Shown here one piece after another: positions 18,172 to 62,304 of a stretch of 64,000 bases of DNA. Position 1 is the stretch's first letter. Every line of letters starts with the position of its first letter. The stretch comes from Mucilaginibacter xinganensis. GTDB lineage: Bacteria; Bacteroidota; Bacteroidia; Sphingobacteriales; Sphingobacteriaceae. Both the position numbers and the translations under genes were made by a program. The stretch lies in NCBI RefSeq assembly GCF_002257585.1, contig NZ_CP022743.1:2480001-2544000 (forward strand). Direction: 5' to 3'. The notes beneath the pieces are model-generated. The model saw only the letters and a program-made list of their open reading frames with translations, ran no database searches and was not told where the DNA came from.

Positions 18172-18444
18172 TTATAGTGTTTCTGTATAGTTAATAATAA
18201 ACTTTGCCACCTGTTCCTGTTCGGCAACGCTTAGTGTTTCACCATCATATATCCAGTAACCTTTTGTATCAAACAATATCCGGCCTAAATAATCCGGAAC
18301 CTCATCAAACGCCGTAAATAACTCATAGCTAAGTACCGCACCGCCATTGTCTGTACCGGGAACAATTCGTATAATTTCATCAGGCCCCTGTTTGCGTTTT
18401 ATCCATGCCTTGGCTTCTCTTATCAAATAAGTGTTGTTCATCAT
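18172..18444 (-). CDS. small orphan protein divergent from imuA
   Basis: This 90-residue protein is not recognised. It is polar, with MNNTYLIREAKAWIKRKQ at the start and a Tyr-rich middle (DYLGRILFDTKGYWIYDG), and it has no signal peptide or membrane helix. It is transcribed away from the imuA-imuB-dnaE2 cassette, with 88 bp between the two starts; that gap contains the 19-bp palindrome. A -7-like CAAAAGTG (18452-18459, TAnnTTTG with one mismatch on the minus strand) lies 8 nt upstream. Sharing a control region suggests co-regulation with the mutagenesis genes, which is inference. Could also be an ordinary hypothetical protein. Confidence 0.65.
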   Translation of the reverse strand: MMNNTYLIREAKAWIKRKQGPDEIIRIVPGTDNGGAVLSYELFTAFDEVPDYLGRILFDTKGYWIYDGETLSVAEQEQVAKFIINYTETL

Positions 18445-18487
18445 GATAAAACAAAAGTGGAAATTATTTTGTAAATCTTTACATAAA

Positions 18488-18513
18488 ATGCTAAAAATTT
18501 TAGCATAAATTTG
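18488..18513 (+). promoter_or_regulatory. imuA promoter with 19-bp operator palindrome
   Basis: Positions 18488-18506 form a perfect palindrome, ATGCTAAAA-A-TTTTAGCAT (9-bp arms, 1-nt centre). Its last base is the first base of TAAATTTG (18506-18513), an exact match to the Bacteroidota -7 element TAnnTTTG, 19 nt before the imuA ATG. A dimeric repressor bound here would block RNA polymerase directly. A LexA-like role is inferred because imuAB-dnaE2 cassettes are SOS-induced elsewhere; the box does not look like the E. coli or Gram-positive LexA box. Confidence 0.65.
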
Positions 18514-18532
18514 TAACCCGAATCAGAAGTTT

Positions 18533-19264
18533 ATGCCCGACACTAAAAAGGATATTATTAACCAGCTCCGAAAGGATATTTTGCTTTGGGAAGGCTTTAA
18601 GCCGCCCGAAGCAGGTAATGGTAATATTATGGGCTTAGGGACCATTGAAGCGGCTTTTCCAAATGGCGTTTTTCCTACAGGTGCCATTCATGAAATGGTT
18701 TGCCCAACGCCTGAGCAATCGGCAGCAACAGGTGGTTTTATGGCTGGTTTGCTATCAACATTAATGCAGCAGGGCGGGATATGCCTGTGGATAGGCACAG
18801 CAAGAAAGCTTTTTCCACCAGCTTTAATGGCTTTTGATGTGGAGCCCGACCGGGTGATATTTATTGATGTAAAGCGTGAAAAAGATGTACTGTGGGCCAC
18901 AGAAGAAGCATTGAAATGCGTGGGGCTTGCTGCGGTGGTTGCTGAACTGCGGGAGATTAGTTTTGCCCAATCACGTCGTTTGCAGCTGGCGGTTGAAAAT
19001 AGCAGGGTAACAGGCTTTATATTACGTAACGATCCGCGGAAATTAGGTTCAACTACCTGTGTGGCACGCTGGCAGGTAATGCATTTGCCAAGTGAGCTGG
19101 AAGAGGATCTGCCCGGCGTAGGCTTTCCGCGCTGGCAGGTGCAACTGCTAAAAGTACGTAACGGAAACCCGGGCAATTGGCAGCTGGAATGGGCGGATGG
19201 CCATTTTGTGACCATAACAGAAAAATCCAGCGTAAACGAAATGCAGCAACTTAAAGCCGGCTGA
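18533..19264 (+). CDS. imuA: ImuA-like mutagenesis accessory protein
   Basis: This 243-residue protein sits first in the imuA-imuB-dnaE2 cassette and has the RecA/SulA-like ImuA fold. Segments resemble a RecA core: AIHEMVCPTPEQSAATGGF where a Walker A would be, ICLWIGTARKLFPPALMAFDVEPDRVIFI, and an AVENSRVTGFILR strand. The Walker lysine is absent, so ATP binding of the RecA type is doubtful. In Caulobacter, Pseudomonas and mycobacteria the cassette performs SOS-induced translesion synthesis, with ImuA or ImuA' helping to recruit the others. It ends 1 nt before imuB. Confidence 0.88.
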   Translation: MPDTKKDIINQLRKDILLWEGFKPPEAGNGNIMGLGTIEAAFPNGVFPTGAIHEMVCPTPEQSAATGGFMAGLLSTLMQQGGICLWIGTARKLFPPALMAFDVEPDRVIFIDVKREKDVLWATEEALKCVGLAAVVAELREISFAQSRRLQLAVENSRVTGFILRNDPRKLGSTTCVARWQVMHLPSELEEDLPGVGFPRWQVQLLKVRNGNPGNWQLEWADGHFVTITEKSSVNEMQQLKAG

Positions 19265-19265
19265 T

Positions 19266-20771
19266 ATGAAAAAACGTTTTGTCTCTGTCTGGTTCCGTCA
19301 TTTAACTACTGATTGGCTAACGCTTCGACGGCCCGAACTGCGTGAAGTACCCTTTGCTTTTGTTACACCTGTAAGGGGGCGGATAGTGATTACGGCTGCC
19401 AACGCATTAGCAGAAAAACATGGAATAACAATTGGCATGGCGGCAGCCGATGCAAAAGCTATAGTGCCGTTATTGGAGGTCGTAGATGATCTGCCGGGCC
19501 AGGCCCCCAAATTATTAAAAGCGCTGGGGGAATGGTGTATTCGTTATACACCTTTAATAGCGGTGGATTTGCCTGATGGTTTAATACTCGATGTTTCGGG
19601 GTGTGCACATTTATGGGGGAGCGAGCGGGATTACCTGGGCGCAATTATTAAGGTATTGCGAAGTAAAGGCTATGACGCCAGGGGGGCAATGGCCGATACA
19701 GCAGGCACGGCCTGGGCAGTGGCACGTTTTGGGCGGTTAAAGCCAATTATTGAACCCGGCGGGCAAGCAGATGCTTTACTCTCTTTGCCGCCGGCAGCGC
19801 TTCGGCTGGAGCCTGTTATTTTGGAACGGCTGCAAAAGCTTGGTTTTTATGCTGTTAAAAGCTTTATAGGCATGGGCCGTTCAGTACTGCGCCGGCGTTT
19901 TGGGCAAGAGTTTCTACTGCGACTGGACCAGGCTCTGGGTAACGAGGCTGAACCGATGCAGTTATTGAAACCTGTTGAACCTTACCAGGAACGGCTGCCC
20001 TGTTTGGAGCCTATCCGTACGGCAACCGGTATTGAAATTGCTATAAAAAATTTACTCGAAAGCCTTTGCCGGCGCTTGCAGGGAGAAGGGAAGGGGTTAC
20101 GAACGGCTGTTTTAAAATGTTACCGGGTAGATGGGAAGTTGGTTGAAGCCAGTATAGGCACTAACCGTCCCTCACATCAAGCCAGTCATTTATTTAAGTT
20201 ATTCGAACTTAAAATAGCATCTATAGAACCTGCTTTGGGGATTGAGTTGTTTACACTTGATGCCCCAAAGGTTGAAGATGTATTGCCAGGGCAGGAAGCG
20301 CTTTGGGCAGTTGAAGCCTGTGGCCTGGCCGAAATAGGTTTAGCGGAATTGCTGGACAGGCTGGCAAATAAAATTGGACAGGGAAGTATCCATCGGTACT
20401 TGCCTGATGAGCATTACTGGCCGGAGCGGTCCATCAGGCTTGCAGCTTCGGTACAGGAAAAACCTGCAACGGCATGGCGAACAGACAGGCCCCGGCCCTC
20501 GTTATTATTGCCATACCCTGAGCGGGTGGAAGTGACCTCCCTGGTTCCTGATTATCCGCCAATGTTATTTATCTATAAAAGTAAGGTTCACAAGATTAGA
20601 AAAGCGGATGGCCCGGAGCGGATAGAACGGGAATGGTGGCTGGAAAGTGGCGAACACCGGGACTATTATCATGTGGAAGACGATGAAGGCCGGCGTTACT
20701 GGCTGTTTAGGTCGGGCCATTATTCAGGCGAACAATTGGGGCAGTGGTTTATTCATGGATTCTTTGCATGA
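19266..20771 (+). CDS. imuB: ImuB, catalytically inactive Y-family polymerase homologue
   Basis: The 501-residue protein is a Y-family DNA polymerase relative. The acidic catalytic residues are missing: the N-terminal strand reads RFVSVWFRHL where active polymerases carry an Asp, and the palm strand reads LDVSGCAHLWG instead of an SxDE motif. That is the known condition of ImuB, which serves as the adaptor bridging the beta clamp and the DnaE2 polymerase. A C-terminal region with RxYYHVEDDEGRRYWLFRSG matches the family tail. Expressed directly after imuA (1-nt gap); dnaE2 follows after 13 nt. The order is the classic cassette order. Confidence 0.93.
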   Translation: MKKRFVSVWFRHLTTDWLTLRRPELREVPFAFVTPVRGRIVITAANALAEKHGITIGMAAADAKAIVPLLEVVDDLPGQAPKLLKALGEWCIRYTPLIAVDLPDGLILDVSGCAHLWGSERDYLGAIIKVLRSKGYDARGAMADTAGTAWAVARFGRLKPIIEPGGQADALLSLPPAALRLEPVILERLQKLGFYAVKSFIGMGRSVLRRRFGQEFLLRLDQALGNEAEPMQLLKPVEPYQERLPCLEPIRTATGIEIAIKNLLESLCRRLQGEGKGLRTAVLKCYRVDGKLVEASIGTNRPSHQASHLFKLFELKIASIEPALGIELFTLDAPKVEDVLPGQEALWAVEACGLAEIGLAELLDRLANKIGQGSIHRYLPDEHYWPERSIRLAASVQEKPATAWRTDRPRPSLLLPYPERVEVTSLVPDYPPMLFIYKSKVHKIRKADGPERIEREWWLESGEHRDYYHVEDDEGRRYWLFRSGHYSGEQLGQWFIHGFFA

Positions 20772-20784
20772 GAAAGGGGTGAAG

Positions 20785-23700
20785 ATGAGTTACATAGAAT
20801 TACAGGTAACAACCAATTTTAGTTTTCTGCGCGGTGGGGCGCACCCGGAGGAACTGGTGACGCAAGCGGCTGATTATGGACAGGTAAAAATTGCCATTAC
20901 TGACCGGAACAGCGTAGCAGGAGTGGTACGTGCTCATATAGCAGCCAAAGCAAGAGAAATGAAAATTATCCCTGCCTGCCGGCTTGATTTGCTGGATGGC
21001 CCCAGTTTACTGGCATATCCTACTGACCAGGAAGCCTGGGGCCGGCTCTGCGGAATACTCACCACCGGCAATCTCCGTGCAGAAAAGGGGGAGTGTTACT
21101 TGTATAAGCAGGATGTGTATACACAGGCCAAAGGCATGAAATTTATGGCGGTGCCACCTGCTGCGCTAAATAAACAGTTTGATTTTGACGATTCCTTTAA
21201 AATAGCTTTAAATGAATATCGCGAGGTTTTTGGCAGGGAACTTTACCTGGCTGCCAGCAAATCTTATAATGGCGACGATGCTAAACGCCTTTACCGCCTA
21301 TCCCGTTTAGGGGTGCCAATGGTAGCCACTAATGATGTGTATTACCATGAACCGGCACGCCGGGAATTACAGGATGTTTTGACTTGTGTGCGGGAAAAGC
21401 GTACCATCCAAAATGCTGGTTTCCTGTTACATCCAAATGCCGAGAGGCACCTTAAACCAAGCGCTGAAATGAAGCGGCTGTTTCGGCAGTATCCTGATGC
21501 TACCGGTTTGACCCTGGAAATAGCTGAAGCATGTACATTCTCTCTTGATACCTTAAAATACATCGAACCTGAAGAAATTAGCCCCGATGGGCTTACACCA
21601 CAGGAACGTTTAACCCGGTTTACCTGGGAAGGTGCAAGGAAAAGGTTTGGAGCTGATGTGCCCGAAAGGATCAAAGAGCAAATTGAGTTTGAGCTGGAAT
21701 TTATTGGCCGTAAAAACCTTGCGTCTTACTTTTTGCGGGTATATAGATATACACGTAAAGCAGAAGAGTTAAATATTCTTTACCAGGGCCGCGGATCGGC
21801 AGCCAATTCTACCGTTTGTTATTGCCTGGCAATTACTGCAGTTAATCCTATGAAGTCAAGGCTGCTTTTTTCGCGTTTTATGTCAGATGCCCGGGATGAG
21901 TGGCCAGATATAGATGTTGACTTTGAGCATGAACGCCGTGAAGAGATCATCCAGTTTATTTATGAAGATTATGGTCGTGAACGGGCCGCTATTGTTGCTA
22001 CAGTTACCCAGGAGCGCCATAAAGGCGCTATTCGTGATGTGGGTAAAGCAATGGAGTTATCAGAAGATACGATCAAAAGGCTTTCAGGTGCAATATGGCA
22101 TTTTTCGGAAGAGGCATTTGACCGGCAGCGGATTTTGGAACAGGGGTTGAATCCTGATGATCCGCAATTGCGAAAAGTGCTCGAACTCACAGAACAGCTT
22201 ATGGGCTTCCCCCGTCAATTGGGGCAGCATACCGGGGGCTTTGTTATTACCCGGGGTAAGCTGTCTGATATTTGCCCGGTAATGAATGCCCGTATGGAAA
22301 ACCGTACCCAGCTGGAATGGAACAAGGATGACCTGGAGGCTTTGAGTATTTTAAAAGTGGATGTACTTGGATTGGGGATGCTGACGTGTATTCGCAAGGG
22401 TTTTGAACTGGCTAAGCAACATTATGAACTCGACCTTACACTGGCCAATATCCCGCAGGATGATCCTGCAGTGTATGAAATGATTTGTCATGCCGATACG
22501 CTTGGCGTTTTTCAGATAGAAAGCCGGGCGCAAATGTCAATGTTGCCGCGCCTGAAACCCCGGTGTTTTTATGACCTGGTCATAGAAGTTGCCATTGTGC
22601 GGCCCGGGCCAATCCAGGGGGATATGGTACACCCATACCTGCGCCGGCGGGACGGTATAGATCCGGTTGAATACCCATCAAAAGAACTGGAAGAAATATT
22701 GGGCCGTACGCTGGGCGTTCCACTATTTCAGGAGCAGGCAATGGAGATAGCTATTGTGGCCGCCGGCTTTACCCCGGCCGAAGCCGACCAGCTACGCCGC
22801 AGCATGGCAACTTTTAAAGCAAAAGGCCTGGTTAGCCAGCACAGGAAAAAGCTGGTTGACGGCATGATGAAAAAAGGATATGCTGAAGATTTTGCCAACC
22901 GTATTTTTAAACAGCTGGAAGGTTTTGGTAGCTACGGTTTTCCTGAAAGCCATGCTGCTTCATTTGCACACCTTGTGTACGTTTCCTCGTGGCTAAAATG
23001 GCATTACCCGGATGTATTTGCGGCCGCATTGCTAAACAGTCAGCCGATGGGGTTTTACCAACCGGCGCAGATAGTGATTGATGCGGAAAGGCATGAGGTT
23101 ACGGTTCGTCCGGTGGATATTAACAATTCTATGTGGGACAATACACTTGAGGAAAAGACAGGTAAATATTTTGCGGTACGGTTAGGATTCAGGCAGGTAA
23201 AGGGACTTGCGGAAGATGATATACAGGCGCTTATTGTGGCCCGGGGGAAAGGTTATACGAGTATCAGCCAGCTTAGCGACGCCGGTGTGTCGCAGGCAGC
23301 CATTGAAAGACTGACCGATGCAGACGCATTCCGTTCGCTGAAACTTGACCGGCGTGAAGCTTTATGGGAAGTGCCCGCGCTTAGTGATAAGCCTGTTGGT
23401 TTATTTGCCGGGCAGCCTTCGGAAAGTAATTACGAAGCGCAAATTACCTTACCTTTTATGACCCAGGCAGAACACGTGGTGCAGGATTATGCTTCCACAG
23501 GGCTGTCCTTAAAAGCACACCCGGTTAGTTTTGTGCGTGAAAAACTTAGGCTGTTGCATGTAACTGCTACAGGTGAATTGGCTAATATGAAAGATGGTGA
23601 CCCGGTTAAAGTTGCCGGGCTGGTAACGGTAAGGCAGCGGCCGGGCACAGCCAAGGGGATTTTATTCATAACCATTGAAGATGAAACGGGATTCTCTAAC

Positions 23701-23964
23701 CTGGTTGTATGGGAGAAAGTTTTTGAAACGCACCGCAAAGAAATTTTGCAGGCACGCCTGCTGATGGTAGAAGGAAAATTGCAGATAGAAGGCGAAGTGA
23801 TCCACGTTATTGTAAAACGTTGCTTTAACCTGTCAGCTTTATTACGGGGGCTCACTGCAACCGAAAATGAGAATTTGCCTGTGCTCACACTCTCCCGTTC
23901 AGATGAAACAACGTCACCCGCGCCTGTGAAGGAAGTGTTTCATAAAGGGCGTAATTTCAGGTAA
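20785..23964 (+). CDS. dnaE2: error-prone DNA polymerase III alpha subunit DnaE2
   Basis: This 1059-residue protein is DnaE2, the mutagenic C-family polymerase of the imuABC cassette. The PHP domain opens with YIELQVTTNFSFLRGGAHPEEL; the polymerase catalytic Asp residues lie in WPDIDVDFEHERR (about residues 372-384), and a GxLxFQEQ-type VPLFQEQAMEIAIVAAGF follows near 645. The OB domain is near the end (PVKVAGLVTVRQRPGTAKGI). An in-frame reading extends to 20647, but that would overlap imuB by 125 nt. I prefer ATG 20785, which has GAAAGGGGTGAAG just upstream and begins at a conserved family start. Length agrees with DnaE2 (about 1050-1100). Confidence 0.94.
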   Translation: MSYIELQVTTNFSFLRGGAHPEELVTQAADYGQVKIAITDRNSVAGVVRAHIAAKAREMKIIPACRLDLLDGPSLLAYPTDQEAWGRLCGILTTGNLRAEKGECYLYKQDVYTQAKGMKFMAVPPAALNKQFDFDDSFKIALNEYREVFGRELYLAASKSYNGDDAKRLYRLSRLGVPMVATNDVYYHEPARRELQDVLTCVREKRTIQNAGFLLHPNAERHLKPSAEMKRLFRQYPDATGLTLEIAEACTFSLDTLKYIEPEEISPDGLTPQERLTRFTWEGARKRFGADVPERIKEQIEFELEFIGRKNLASYFLRVYRYTRKAEELNILYQGRGSAANSTVCYCLAITAVNPMKSRLLFSRFMSDARDEWPDIDVDFEHERREEIIQFIYEDYGRERAAIVATVTQERHKGAIRDVGKAMELSEDTIKRLSGAIWHFSEEAFDRQRILEQGLNPDDPQLRKVLELTEQLMGFPRQLGQHTGGFVITRGKLSDICPVMNARMENRTQLEWNKDDLEALSILKVDVLGLGMLTCIRKGFELAKQHYELDLTLANIPQDDPAVYEMICHADTLGVFQIESRAQMSMLPRLKPRCFYDLVIEVAIVRPGPIQGDMVHPYLRRRDGIDPVEYPSKELEEILGRTLGVPLFQEQAMEIAIVAAGFTPAEADQLRRSMATFKAKGLVSQHRKKLVDGMMKKGYAEDFANRIFKQLEGFGSYGFPESHAASFAHLVYVSSWLKWHYPDVFAAALLNSQPMGFYQPAQIVIDAERHEVTVRPVDINNSMWDNTLEEKTGKYFAVRLGFRQVKGLAEDDIQALIVARGKGYTSISQLSDAGVSQAAIERLTDADAFRSLKLDRREALWEVPALSDKPVGLFAGQPSESNYEAQITLPFMTQAEHVVQDYASTGLSLKAHPVSFVREKLRLLHVTATGELANMKDGDPVKVAGLVTVRQRPGTAKGILFITIEDETGFSNLVVWEKVFETHRKEILQARLLMVEGKLQIEGEVIHVIVKRCFNLSALLRGLTATENENLPVLTLSRSDETTSPAPVKEVFHKGRNFR

Positions 23965-53353: not shown

Positions 53354-54835
53354 ATGAAAAAGATATTTTATATAATTCCGGTGGCAGCAATGATAAGTTC
53401 CTGCTCACCTATCATATATAGCAGTAATCCGCAGCCGGTTTATAACGATCAGTCGCAATATGTACAGCAGCCGGTAACTGACCAGGTGTTTTATGATGAG
53501 CTTAGCCCTTACGGTCAATGGATAGATTACCCTGACTTTGGATACGTTTGGCAGCCAAACGTTGACGGGGATTTTAGGCCTTATGATACCAACGGCAATT
53601 GGGTTTACAGCGAAGATGGATGGACATGGGTGTCAAATTACAGCTGGGGATGGGCGCCGTTCCATTACGGAAGATGGTTTTATGACGGCGGTTACGGCTG
53701 GCTTTGGATGCCCGGCAGCGAATGGGCACCCGCGTGGGTTACCTGGGGGCAAAGCGGCGATTATTACGGCTGGGCACCTTTATCTCCAAATGGAGGATAT
53801 AACAACGGCTGGAGGCCGCGAAACGAAGACTGGAGTTATGTACACGCCGGTTATATGAATCGCAGGAACATTAATAACTATATTATCAGGAATAATGTTA
53901 CTGTTATTAACAATACAACCATTATTAATAACTATACCACCAACAACTATAATAATGGCAGCGGAAATAACAATGGTGGTAATGGTCACCGTGGTTTTAC
54001 TTATAACCGTGGTCCGCGTGTTGTGGATGTCGAAAACCGTACCAATACCACAATACGGCCGGTGCGGATCGGCATTATCCAAAAGCCGGGAGAATCGTTG
54101 TCAAATAACCAGCTAAATGTTTACAGGCCGGTTATTAAACAAAACCCCGACCAGGGCAGTAACAGACCTGCACCAGCACGTGTGGTAAGTTTTGATCGTG
54201 GCGATCACCGTAACCCCAATCAACAAAATCAAAGGCCAAATAATGGCCAGGTAAACCCTAACCCGCAGCAGGGGCAGCAATATCCAAGGGGTAATAATGA
54301 ACGGGGGAATAACCAAAATCCCGGTCAGCAACAGAGCAATCCAAATTCACGGCCGGTTACCGGCGAAGGGAATCATCAAACCCCCAACCCGCAGCAAAAC
54401 CAGCAATATCCAAGGCCTAATAATGGTCAGGCGAATCCTAACCCACAGCAAGGGCAACCTATTCCACGGCCTGTACAACAACAGCCTGTACCTGTTCAAC
54501 AGCAGCCACGGCCTGTACAACAACAGCCTGTACCTGTTCAACAGCAGCCACGGCCTGTACAACAACAGCCTGTACCTGTTCAACAGCAGCCACGGCCTGT
54601 ACAACAACAGCCTGTACCTGTTCAACAGCAGCCAAGGCCTGTGCAACAACAGCCTGTACCTGTTCAACAACAGCCAAGGCCGGTACAACAACGGTCAACT
54701 GATGATCGGCCAAGGCCGATTCAGCAGCAACCTCGTCCGGTGGTAAAGCCGCCGGTGCAGCCAAGGCCAAGAACTGAAGTTGTAAAGCCTCAGCCCGTAA
54801 AGCCGGTTGAACAGGCGCCGCCGGTACAACAATAA
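53354..54835 (+). CDS. DUF6600-type lipoprotein with a Pro/Gln-rich repetitive tail
   Basis: The 493-residue protein has a lipobox (VAAMISSC, Cys about 17). Its first half carries a Trp/Tyr/Gly-rich DUF6600-type region (YGQWIDYPDFGYVWQP, then WGWAPFHYGRWFYDGGYGWL, about 53-145). From about 250 it is dominated by Asn, Gln and Pro, ending in five copies of RPVQQQPVPVQQQP (42-bp DNA repeats at 54467-54676) and a short PxxP tail. It is probably anchored to the outer membrane with a flexible, perhaps cell-wall-spanning, tail. Function unknown. Confidence 0.85.
   Translation: MKKIFYIIPVAAMISSCSPIIYSSNPQPVYNDQSQYVQQPVTDQVFYDELSPYGQWIDYPDFGYVWQPNVDGDFRPYDTNGNWVYSEDGWTWVSNYSWGWAPFHYGRWFYDGGYGWLWMPGSEWAPAWVTWGQSGDYYGWAPLSPNGGYNNGWRPRNEDWSYVHAGYMNRRNINNYIIRNNVTVINNTTIINNYTTNNYNNGSGNNNGGNGHRGFTYNRGPRVVDVENRTNTTIRPVRIGIIQKPGESLSNNQLNVYRPVIKQNPDQGSNRPAPARVVSFDRGDHRNPNQQNQRPNNGQVNPNPQQGQQYPRGNNERGNNQNPGQQQSNPNSRPVTGEGNHQTPNPQQNQQYPRPNNGQANPNPQQGQPIPRPVQQQPVPVQQQPRPVQQQPVPVQQQPRPVQQQPVPVQQQPRPVQQQPVPVQQQPRPVQQQPVPVQQQPRPVQQRSTDDRPRPIQQQPRPVVKPPVQPRPRTEVVKPQPVKPVEQAPPVQQ
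54467..54676 (+). repeat. five tandem 42-bp repeats encoding Pro/Gln repeats
   Basis: Units start at 54467, 54509, 54551, 54593 and 54635, with a partial sixth at 54677. Adjacent copies are nearly identical, with drift in the last ones. The 14-codon period keeps the frame, so copy number can change without disrupting the protein. Confidence 0.95.
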
Positions 54836-62261: not shown

Positions 62262-62304
62262 ACTTTAAACTCACGAAGTTTTCAAAACTTCGTGAGTTTA
62301 AAGT
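62262..62304. terminator. 43-bp perfect palindrome between convergent guaB and ROK genes
   Basis: Arms 62262-62282 and 62284-62304 are exact reverse complements over 21 bp with a single-base centre at 62283. The stem holds CTCACGAAG / CTTCGTGAG. It begins at the ROK stop codon, so it probably terminates both messages. It resembles the hairpin at 55280-55313. Confidence 0.75.

Follow-up and report, generated by a model that had tools for sequence, protein, structure and literature searches.

The imuA-imuB-dnaE2 cassette of Mucilaginibacter xinganensis is separated from a divergent gene for a 90-residue protein by a gap that holds a perfect palindrome, which raises the question of whether this palindrome is an SOS operator and, if so, which of the two genes it serves. 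We analyzed a window of 64,000 nucleotides around it (NCBI RefSeq assembly GCF_002257585.1, contig NZ_CP022743.1, positions 2,480,001 to 2,544,000), together with the whole genome and the corresponding loci of relatives. On the forward strand, imuA (18533–19264, from the list of open reading frames; NF033429, E 7.5e-22, 78.1 bits, below the curated NCBIfam cut-off of 150) is followed by imuB, which encodes a Y-family polymerase-like protein (19266–20771; PF00817), and by dnaE2 (20785–23964; family match), for which we chose the in-frame ATG of MSYIELQ as the start, the listed frame beginning at a GTG at 20647. Apart from the score of ImuA, the three adjacent genes have the order and the families of an imuA-imuB-dnaE2 cassette. 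ImuA also has a weak match to SulA models (TIGR00623, E 1e-6). The 90-aa gene (18172–18444, reverse strand) belongs to a family with the signature GRILFD..GYWIYDG....EQEQ.A.FI and, from its reading frame and the comparative evidence below, is a probable SOS gene.

The palindrome, ATGCTAAAAATTTTAGCAT, is of the form 9-1-9 and occupies 18488–18506; its final base (18506) is also the first base of TAAATTTG (18506–18513), and these coordinates, like those of the 90-aa frame and of the imuA start, reproduce those of an earlier note on this DNA. Its 13-bp core (18491–18503), CTAA-AAATT-TTAG, has CTAA and TTAG exactly 5 bp apart, and from the sequence and the published motif we predict an SOS operator here, with no strand assigned. 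The main text of Sanchez-Osuna et al. 2021 (PMC8565304) describes CTAA-N5-TTAG, identical in dyad and spacer to the window site, as the SOS operator of the non-canonical LexA of Bacteroidetes; it places the imuA-imuB-dnaE2 cassette among the targets in several species, and Sphingobacteriaceae among the groups with large regulons, and states that canonical LexA homologs are absent from Bacteroidetes. It further reports electrophoretic mobility shift assays with mutated sites, which showed that the site depends on its two dyads and on the length of the spacer but not on the spacer or flank bases, and induction of the regulon by mitomycin C in other species. Because the operator was published in 2021 with this cassette as a target, the window operator is of an established type and is not itself new. 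The canonical LexA box of Escherichia coli, CTGT-N8-ACAG, is likewise a palindromic SOS repressor site but has another dyad and another spacer; it is not present in 18480–18510.

Palindromy by itself is not clearly above chance, since perfect inverted repeats with arms of at least 9 and loops of 0–5 give five matches at three places in the window and one to four matches in each of five shuffles. Besides the palindrome, perfect inverted repeats of about this size lie at 53544–53562 and 62272–62294. Within the window, ATGCTAAAANTTTTAGCAT occurs once when up to three mismatches are allowed, with 0.19 occurrences expected and at least one found in 18 of 100 shuffles. What does exceed chance is the palindrome's place and its conservation. 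In a genome-wide search for the 19-mer, as the earlier note had proposed, no further copy exists at two mismatches or fewer, and at three there are 17 other places against 6 in a reversed control, five of the 17 lying at uvrA, recA, dinB, the gene of an S24 repressor, and dprA. With no second copy in the genome at two mismatches or fewer, the functional unit is not the full 19-mer but the 13-bp core.

Counted over all spacers, CTAA-N5-TTAG occurs 60 times in the 5.30 Mb of the genome and its reversed control 98 times, so that the motif as such is not over-represented; sites with an all-A/T spacer number 24, against 7. We annotated these 24 and one other, at dprA, using open reading frames for the A/T-spacer sites and, for most of the named genes, profile matches. 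Ten of the 24 lie at most 80 bp upstream of the starts of repair, regulator, or neighboring 2'-5' RNA ligase-like (2H) genes: single sites precede radA, a PA0069-type radical SAM gene, uvrA, recA, rSAM_link_UDG, a gene for a DEDD exonuclease with a GIY-YIG domain, and a second 2H gene near dinB, and a common site lies between the two genes of each of three pairs: imuA and the 90-aa gene, dinB and a divergent 2H gene, and the S24 repressor gene and a divergent GIY-YIG gene. Distances to rSAM_link_UDG and to the S24 repressor gene were counted from the in-frame ATG after the site and not from the longest frame. A further 9 of the 24 fall within open reading frames and 5 have no assigned gene; of the 7 reversed-control sites, 5 were examined, and all of these are within open reading frames. 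The core thus precedes recA, uvrA, dinB, and the repressor gene, contrary to the possibility, raised in advance, that no copy would stand before DNA-repair genes. The two 2H phosphoesterase genes (3243798 and 3245111 of the chromosome) have a site within 30 bp of each start, and a mixed-spacer site, CTAA-AATTG-TTAG, lies about 60 bp upstream of dprA (2034969). Targets shared with the regulon of PMC8565304, as its main text gives it, are recA, dinB, imuA-imuB-dnaE2, the radical-SAM/UDG genes, and the GIY-YIG exonuclease, whereas a term search of that text found neither the 90-aa family nor alkB nor dprA, and no mention of a hypothetical protein.

The operator is constant at imuA in other genomes of the Bacteroidota. 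A scan of relatives yielded 39 imuA loci, 37 of them from Bacteroidota; the two alphaproteobacterial loci, left out of the 37, both lack the motif. It heads the imuA operon in all 37 Bacteroidota loci, so the conservation at the same place that the earlier note had asked about is present throughout. In 33 of them the motif is at most 300 bp upstream of imuA, where 0.45 loci are expected from shuffles of all 39, and in the remaining four it stands about 400 bp upstream, before a leader frame of 118–130 aa that ends just 5' of imuA. A scan of 3,328 dyads upstream of imuA ranked CTAA-N5-TTAG first (37/37 loci; 17 for the runner-up and at most 8 in shuffles). Together, the core before recA, uvrA, dinB, and the repressor gene and the 37 imuA loci support, from sequence comparison, the reading of the palindrome as a Bacteroidota SOS operator. 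Small leader frames of several types (92–138 aa) lie between operator and imuA in 11 loci (L022, L024, L025, L026, L117, L120, and L131–L135); four full-length ones have a common N-terminal F.IDVEL pattern, and two of the four have no Pfam match. A common origin of the 90-aa family and these leader frames (alignment A4) was not accepted, the hhalign probability being 16.5% over 21 columns.

Promoters of Bacteroidota have the −7 consensus TAnnTTTG. The probable −7 element of imuA, TAAATTTG (forward strand), judged against this consensus, begins 2 bp after the operator core, and relatives have such an element in a like place: NAnnTTTG occurs within 25 bp past the core in 22 of 37 imuA loci, at 0–3 bp in 21 and at 10 bp in one, and this pattern finds none near the operator in the other 15. 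An element adjoining the core would fit a repressor that, when bound, blocks the imuA promoter. On the other side, a tentative −7-like element of the 90-aa gene, CACTTTTG (18452–18459, reverse strand), is 31 bp from the core. Among relatives of this gene, NAnnTTTG lies between operator and start in 38 of 42 loci, at 7–10 bp from the core in 13, 18–22 bp in 10, and 31 bp in 15, counts that ignore relatedness and use a loose pattern, with alternatives at 9 bp in two loci (L111 and L115). The clusters are spaced in steps of about one helical turn, which hints that the operator may have to face one side of the 90-aa promoter. Because CACTTTTG is off-consensus and 31 bp from the core, we are less sure that the window operator would repress the 90-aa gene than that it would repress imuA.

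The next question is whether the operator belongs to the 90-aa gene at all. A six-row profile searched against 301 genomes of Sphingobacteriaceae found relatives of the gene in 59, so that its earlier description as an orphan was wrong. We took as close relatives, and examined without exception, the 44 loci that match strongly (E 2e-25 or better, from 41 genomes), and 42 of the 44 have the motif upstream, 13–78 bp from the aligned start; the 155 kb of these loci contain 44 CTAA-N5-TTAG sites, of which 42 are those just upstream of the 90-aa relative. A dyad scan upstream of the gene again ranked this motif first (42 of the 44 loci; 18 for the next, at most 8 in shuffles). The two close relatives that lack it, L136 and L137, are part of operons that begin with dinB and dnaE and end with alkB, and the site stands ahead of dinB, at 31 bp in one operon and about 60 bp in the other. 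These predicted SOS-headed operons (L136:2791–8261 and L137:2791–8137) have the order dinB, dnaE, a small frame, the 90-aa family gene, and alkB, and the operator of L136 has a divergent SRAP gene on its far side. In a diverged subfamily with the variant NWIYDG, for which 14 of 16 matches were fetched (a fragment and a match with stop codons being left out), the motif is present in 13 of 14 loci, L174 being the one without it; three of the 13 sites fall inside the longest frame, yet the conserved start comes only about 45 bp after them.

On an alternative reading, the operator serves imuA only and the 90-aa gene is a bystander in the same gap. The operator is indeed found at imuA in relatives that lack the gene, which by tblastn is intact in only 5 of the 37 Bacteroidota imuA loci and a fragment in one more, and the 31 bp between the core and CACTTTTG in the window would suit a bystander. 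Yet by the same method 25 of the 44 close-relative loci have no imuA in the fetched stretch (about 1.5–2 kb per side, shorter at contig ends such as that of L125), and in 23 of them the operator nonetheless stands close upstream of the gene; among the 25, too, the motif led the dyad scan (23 loci; 9 for the next, at most 4 in shuffles). Twelve distant paralog loci, taken from the weak matches and including two in the window's own genome (40 kb in all; the frame of L179 is doubtful), contain no CTAA-N5-TTAG. On a maximum-likelihood tree of the 44 loci, linkage to imuA changes 12 times, at least 6 of these changes being forced by well-supported branches, and the operator is kept through them; most of the 44 loci belong to a single genus, which means that the counts are not independent. 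Given its retention without imuA, its absence from the distant paralogs, and these changes of linkage, the operator accompanies the 90-aa gene and not only imuA, and we regard the bystander reading as unlikely. Because the family keeps the operator when located elsewhere, the 90-aa gene would belong to the regulon independently of imuA: by this comparative evidence, which upholds the earlier suggestion that it shares the imuA control region, it is probably an SOS gene and a new member of the known regulon. In the fragment locus (L017), the gene is cut to its first part, with operator and imuA still in place.

A second alternative concerns the protein that would use the site. The leading candidate, at about 3.36 Mb of the genome, is a 257-aa protein with HTH_3 and Peptidase_S24 domains (L077:2528–3301), in which inspection by eye shows an Ala-Gly bond and the Ser/Lys of the S24 dyad, and its gene has CTAA-N5-TTAG in its own promoter; an S24 repressor with HTH_3 and such a site is likewise part of the regulon in the main text of PMC8565304. 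Divergent from this gene is a 118-aa GIY-YIG-like gene (L077:2085–2441), with the site (chromosome position 3359622) 60 bp from its start. The site could instead be used by another protein, such as a second HTH-type S24-like protein of regulator size (261 aa) encoded at 1.3655 Mb; in that protein, however, inspection by eye shows no Ala-Gly at the equivalent position, and its locus lacks CTAA-N5-TTAG, whereas the 3.36-Mb gene has the site, and we consider this reading very improbable. The genome's third S24 match is within a 732-aa frame.

Among the 44 loci, imuA is divergent in 19, and the downstream same-strand gene is of the alkB type (PF13532) in 17 and a Cdd1 gene (PF11731) in 8, both being present in one. 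The window has neither after the 90-aa gene, which is followed by a lipocalin gene; the alkB relative of this genome (40% identity) is in another place, a 3.5-kb locus from which the motif is absent. Estimates of dN/dS are 0.05–0.15 in the 9 of 36 pairs with usable dS and are rough, as dS is saturated in the other 27. Searches of Pfam and NCBIfam with the window protein gave no match; 9 of 37 family members match YopX (best E 0.0057), and 12 of 37 match phrog_36466, for which no function is assigned (best E 0.0004; window protein 0.0029). No relative is encoded in any of 600 stretches of viral contigs chosen by pattern match, and a search of PDB sequences with the family profile found nothing at E 1 or better, though the family is so short that a lack of homology matches is weak evidence. 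A structure model built from six sequences (pLDDT 80.9, pTM 0.74) has five strands and one helix, and Foldseek returned no match to it at E 0.001 or better. Structural homology from VIA-align was not accepted (best Z 6.2). The protein is acidic, with a net charge of −5 in the window and a mean of −5.2 over 46 members, a set without 9 loci missed by the pattern, and chains of the uracil-DNA-glycosylase inhibitors UGI and SAUGI recur among the VIA-align rows (Z 4.2–5.4). It might thus mimic DNA, as UGI does, and so hold a repair enzyme in check; yet Z values below 8 are middling by the tool's own scale, histone acetyltransferases score equally high, and neither Foldseek nor the profile search of PDB adds a match. 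We give such a mimic a low probability. Among the matches listed by a literature search, none of the titles and abstract openings points to the 90-aa family. UmuD and SulA are small SOS-controlled proteins, and the 90-aa gene resembles theirs in its small product, its predicted SOS control, and its place beside error-prone polymerase genes; a difference is that its window product has no Pfam or NCBIfam match.

Our preferred reading, which we hold with high confidence, is that the palindrome would act as a bidirectional SOS operator, through which an S24 LexA-type repressor controls both imuA-imuB-dnaE2 and the 90-aa gene and DNA damage induces both. A dimer of the non-canonical LexA encoded at about 3.36 Mb (HTH_3 and S24) would bind CTAA-N5-TTAG and thereby repress two units: imuA-imuB-dnaE2, whose −7 element adjoins the operator, and, in the opposite direction, the 90-aa gene. 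Upon damage, RecA filaments would trigger self-cleavage of the repressor at the Ala-Gly bond, and both units would be induced, the 90-aa product most likely helping translesion synthesis or alkylation repair. Two points here are inferred: that in this strain the repressor holds and releases the two promoters, and what the 90-aa protein does. More speculatively, and in our judgment with the odds against it, the family may represent SOS effectors of a new class. Such a protein, small, acidic, and produced after DNA damage, would bind the ImuA-ImuB-DnaE2 mutasome, DinB-DnaE, or the AlkB repair machinery and adjust its activity, perhaps by mimicking DNA, and its gene would move as a module, operator included, from one of these repair operons to another.

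The operator is a clean further instance of a published regulon, and with the 90-aa gene the SOS response of one large genus of Bacteroidota would gain a family that so far has no name. This family is linked to translesion synthesis, to alkylation repair through alkB, and to the helix-hairpin-helix Cdd1 gene. Its retention of the operator across repeated relocations makes the 90-aa gene a candidate, open to direct test, for a factor that assists the mutasome or AlkB.
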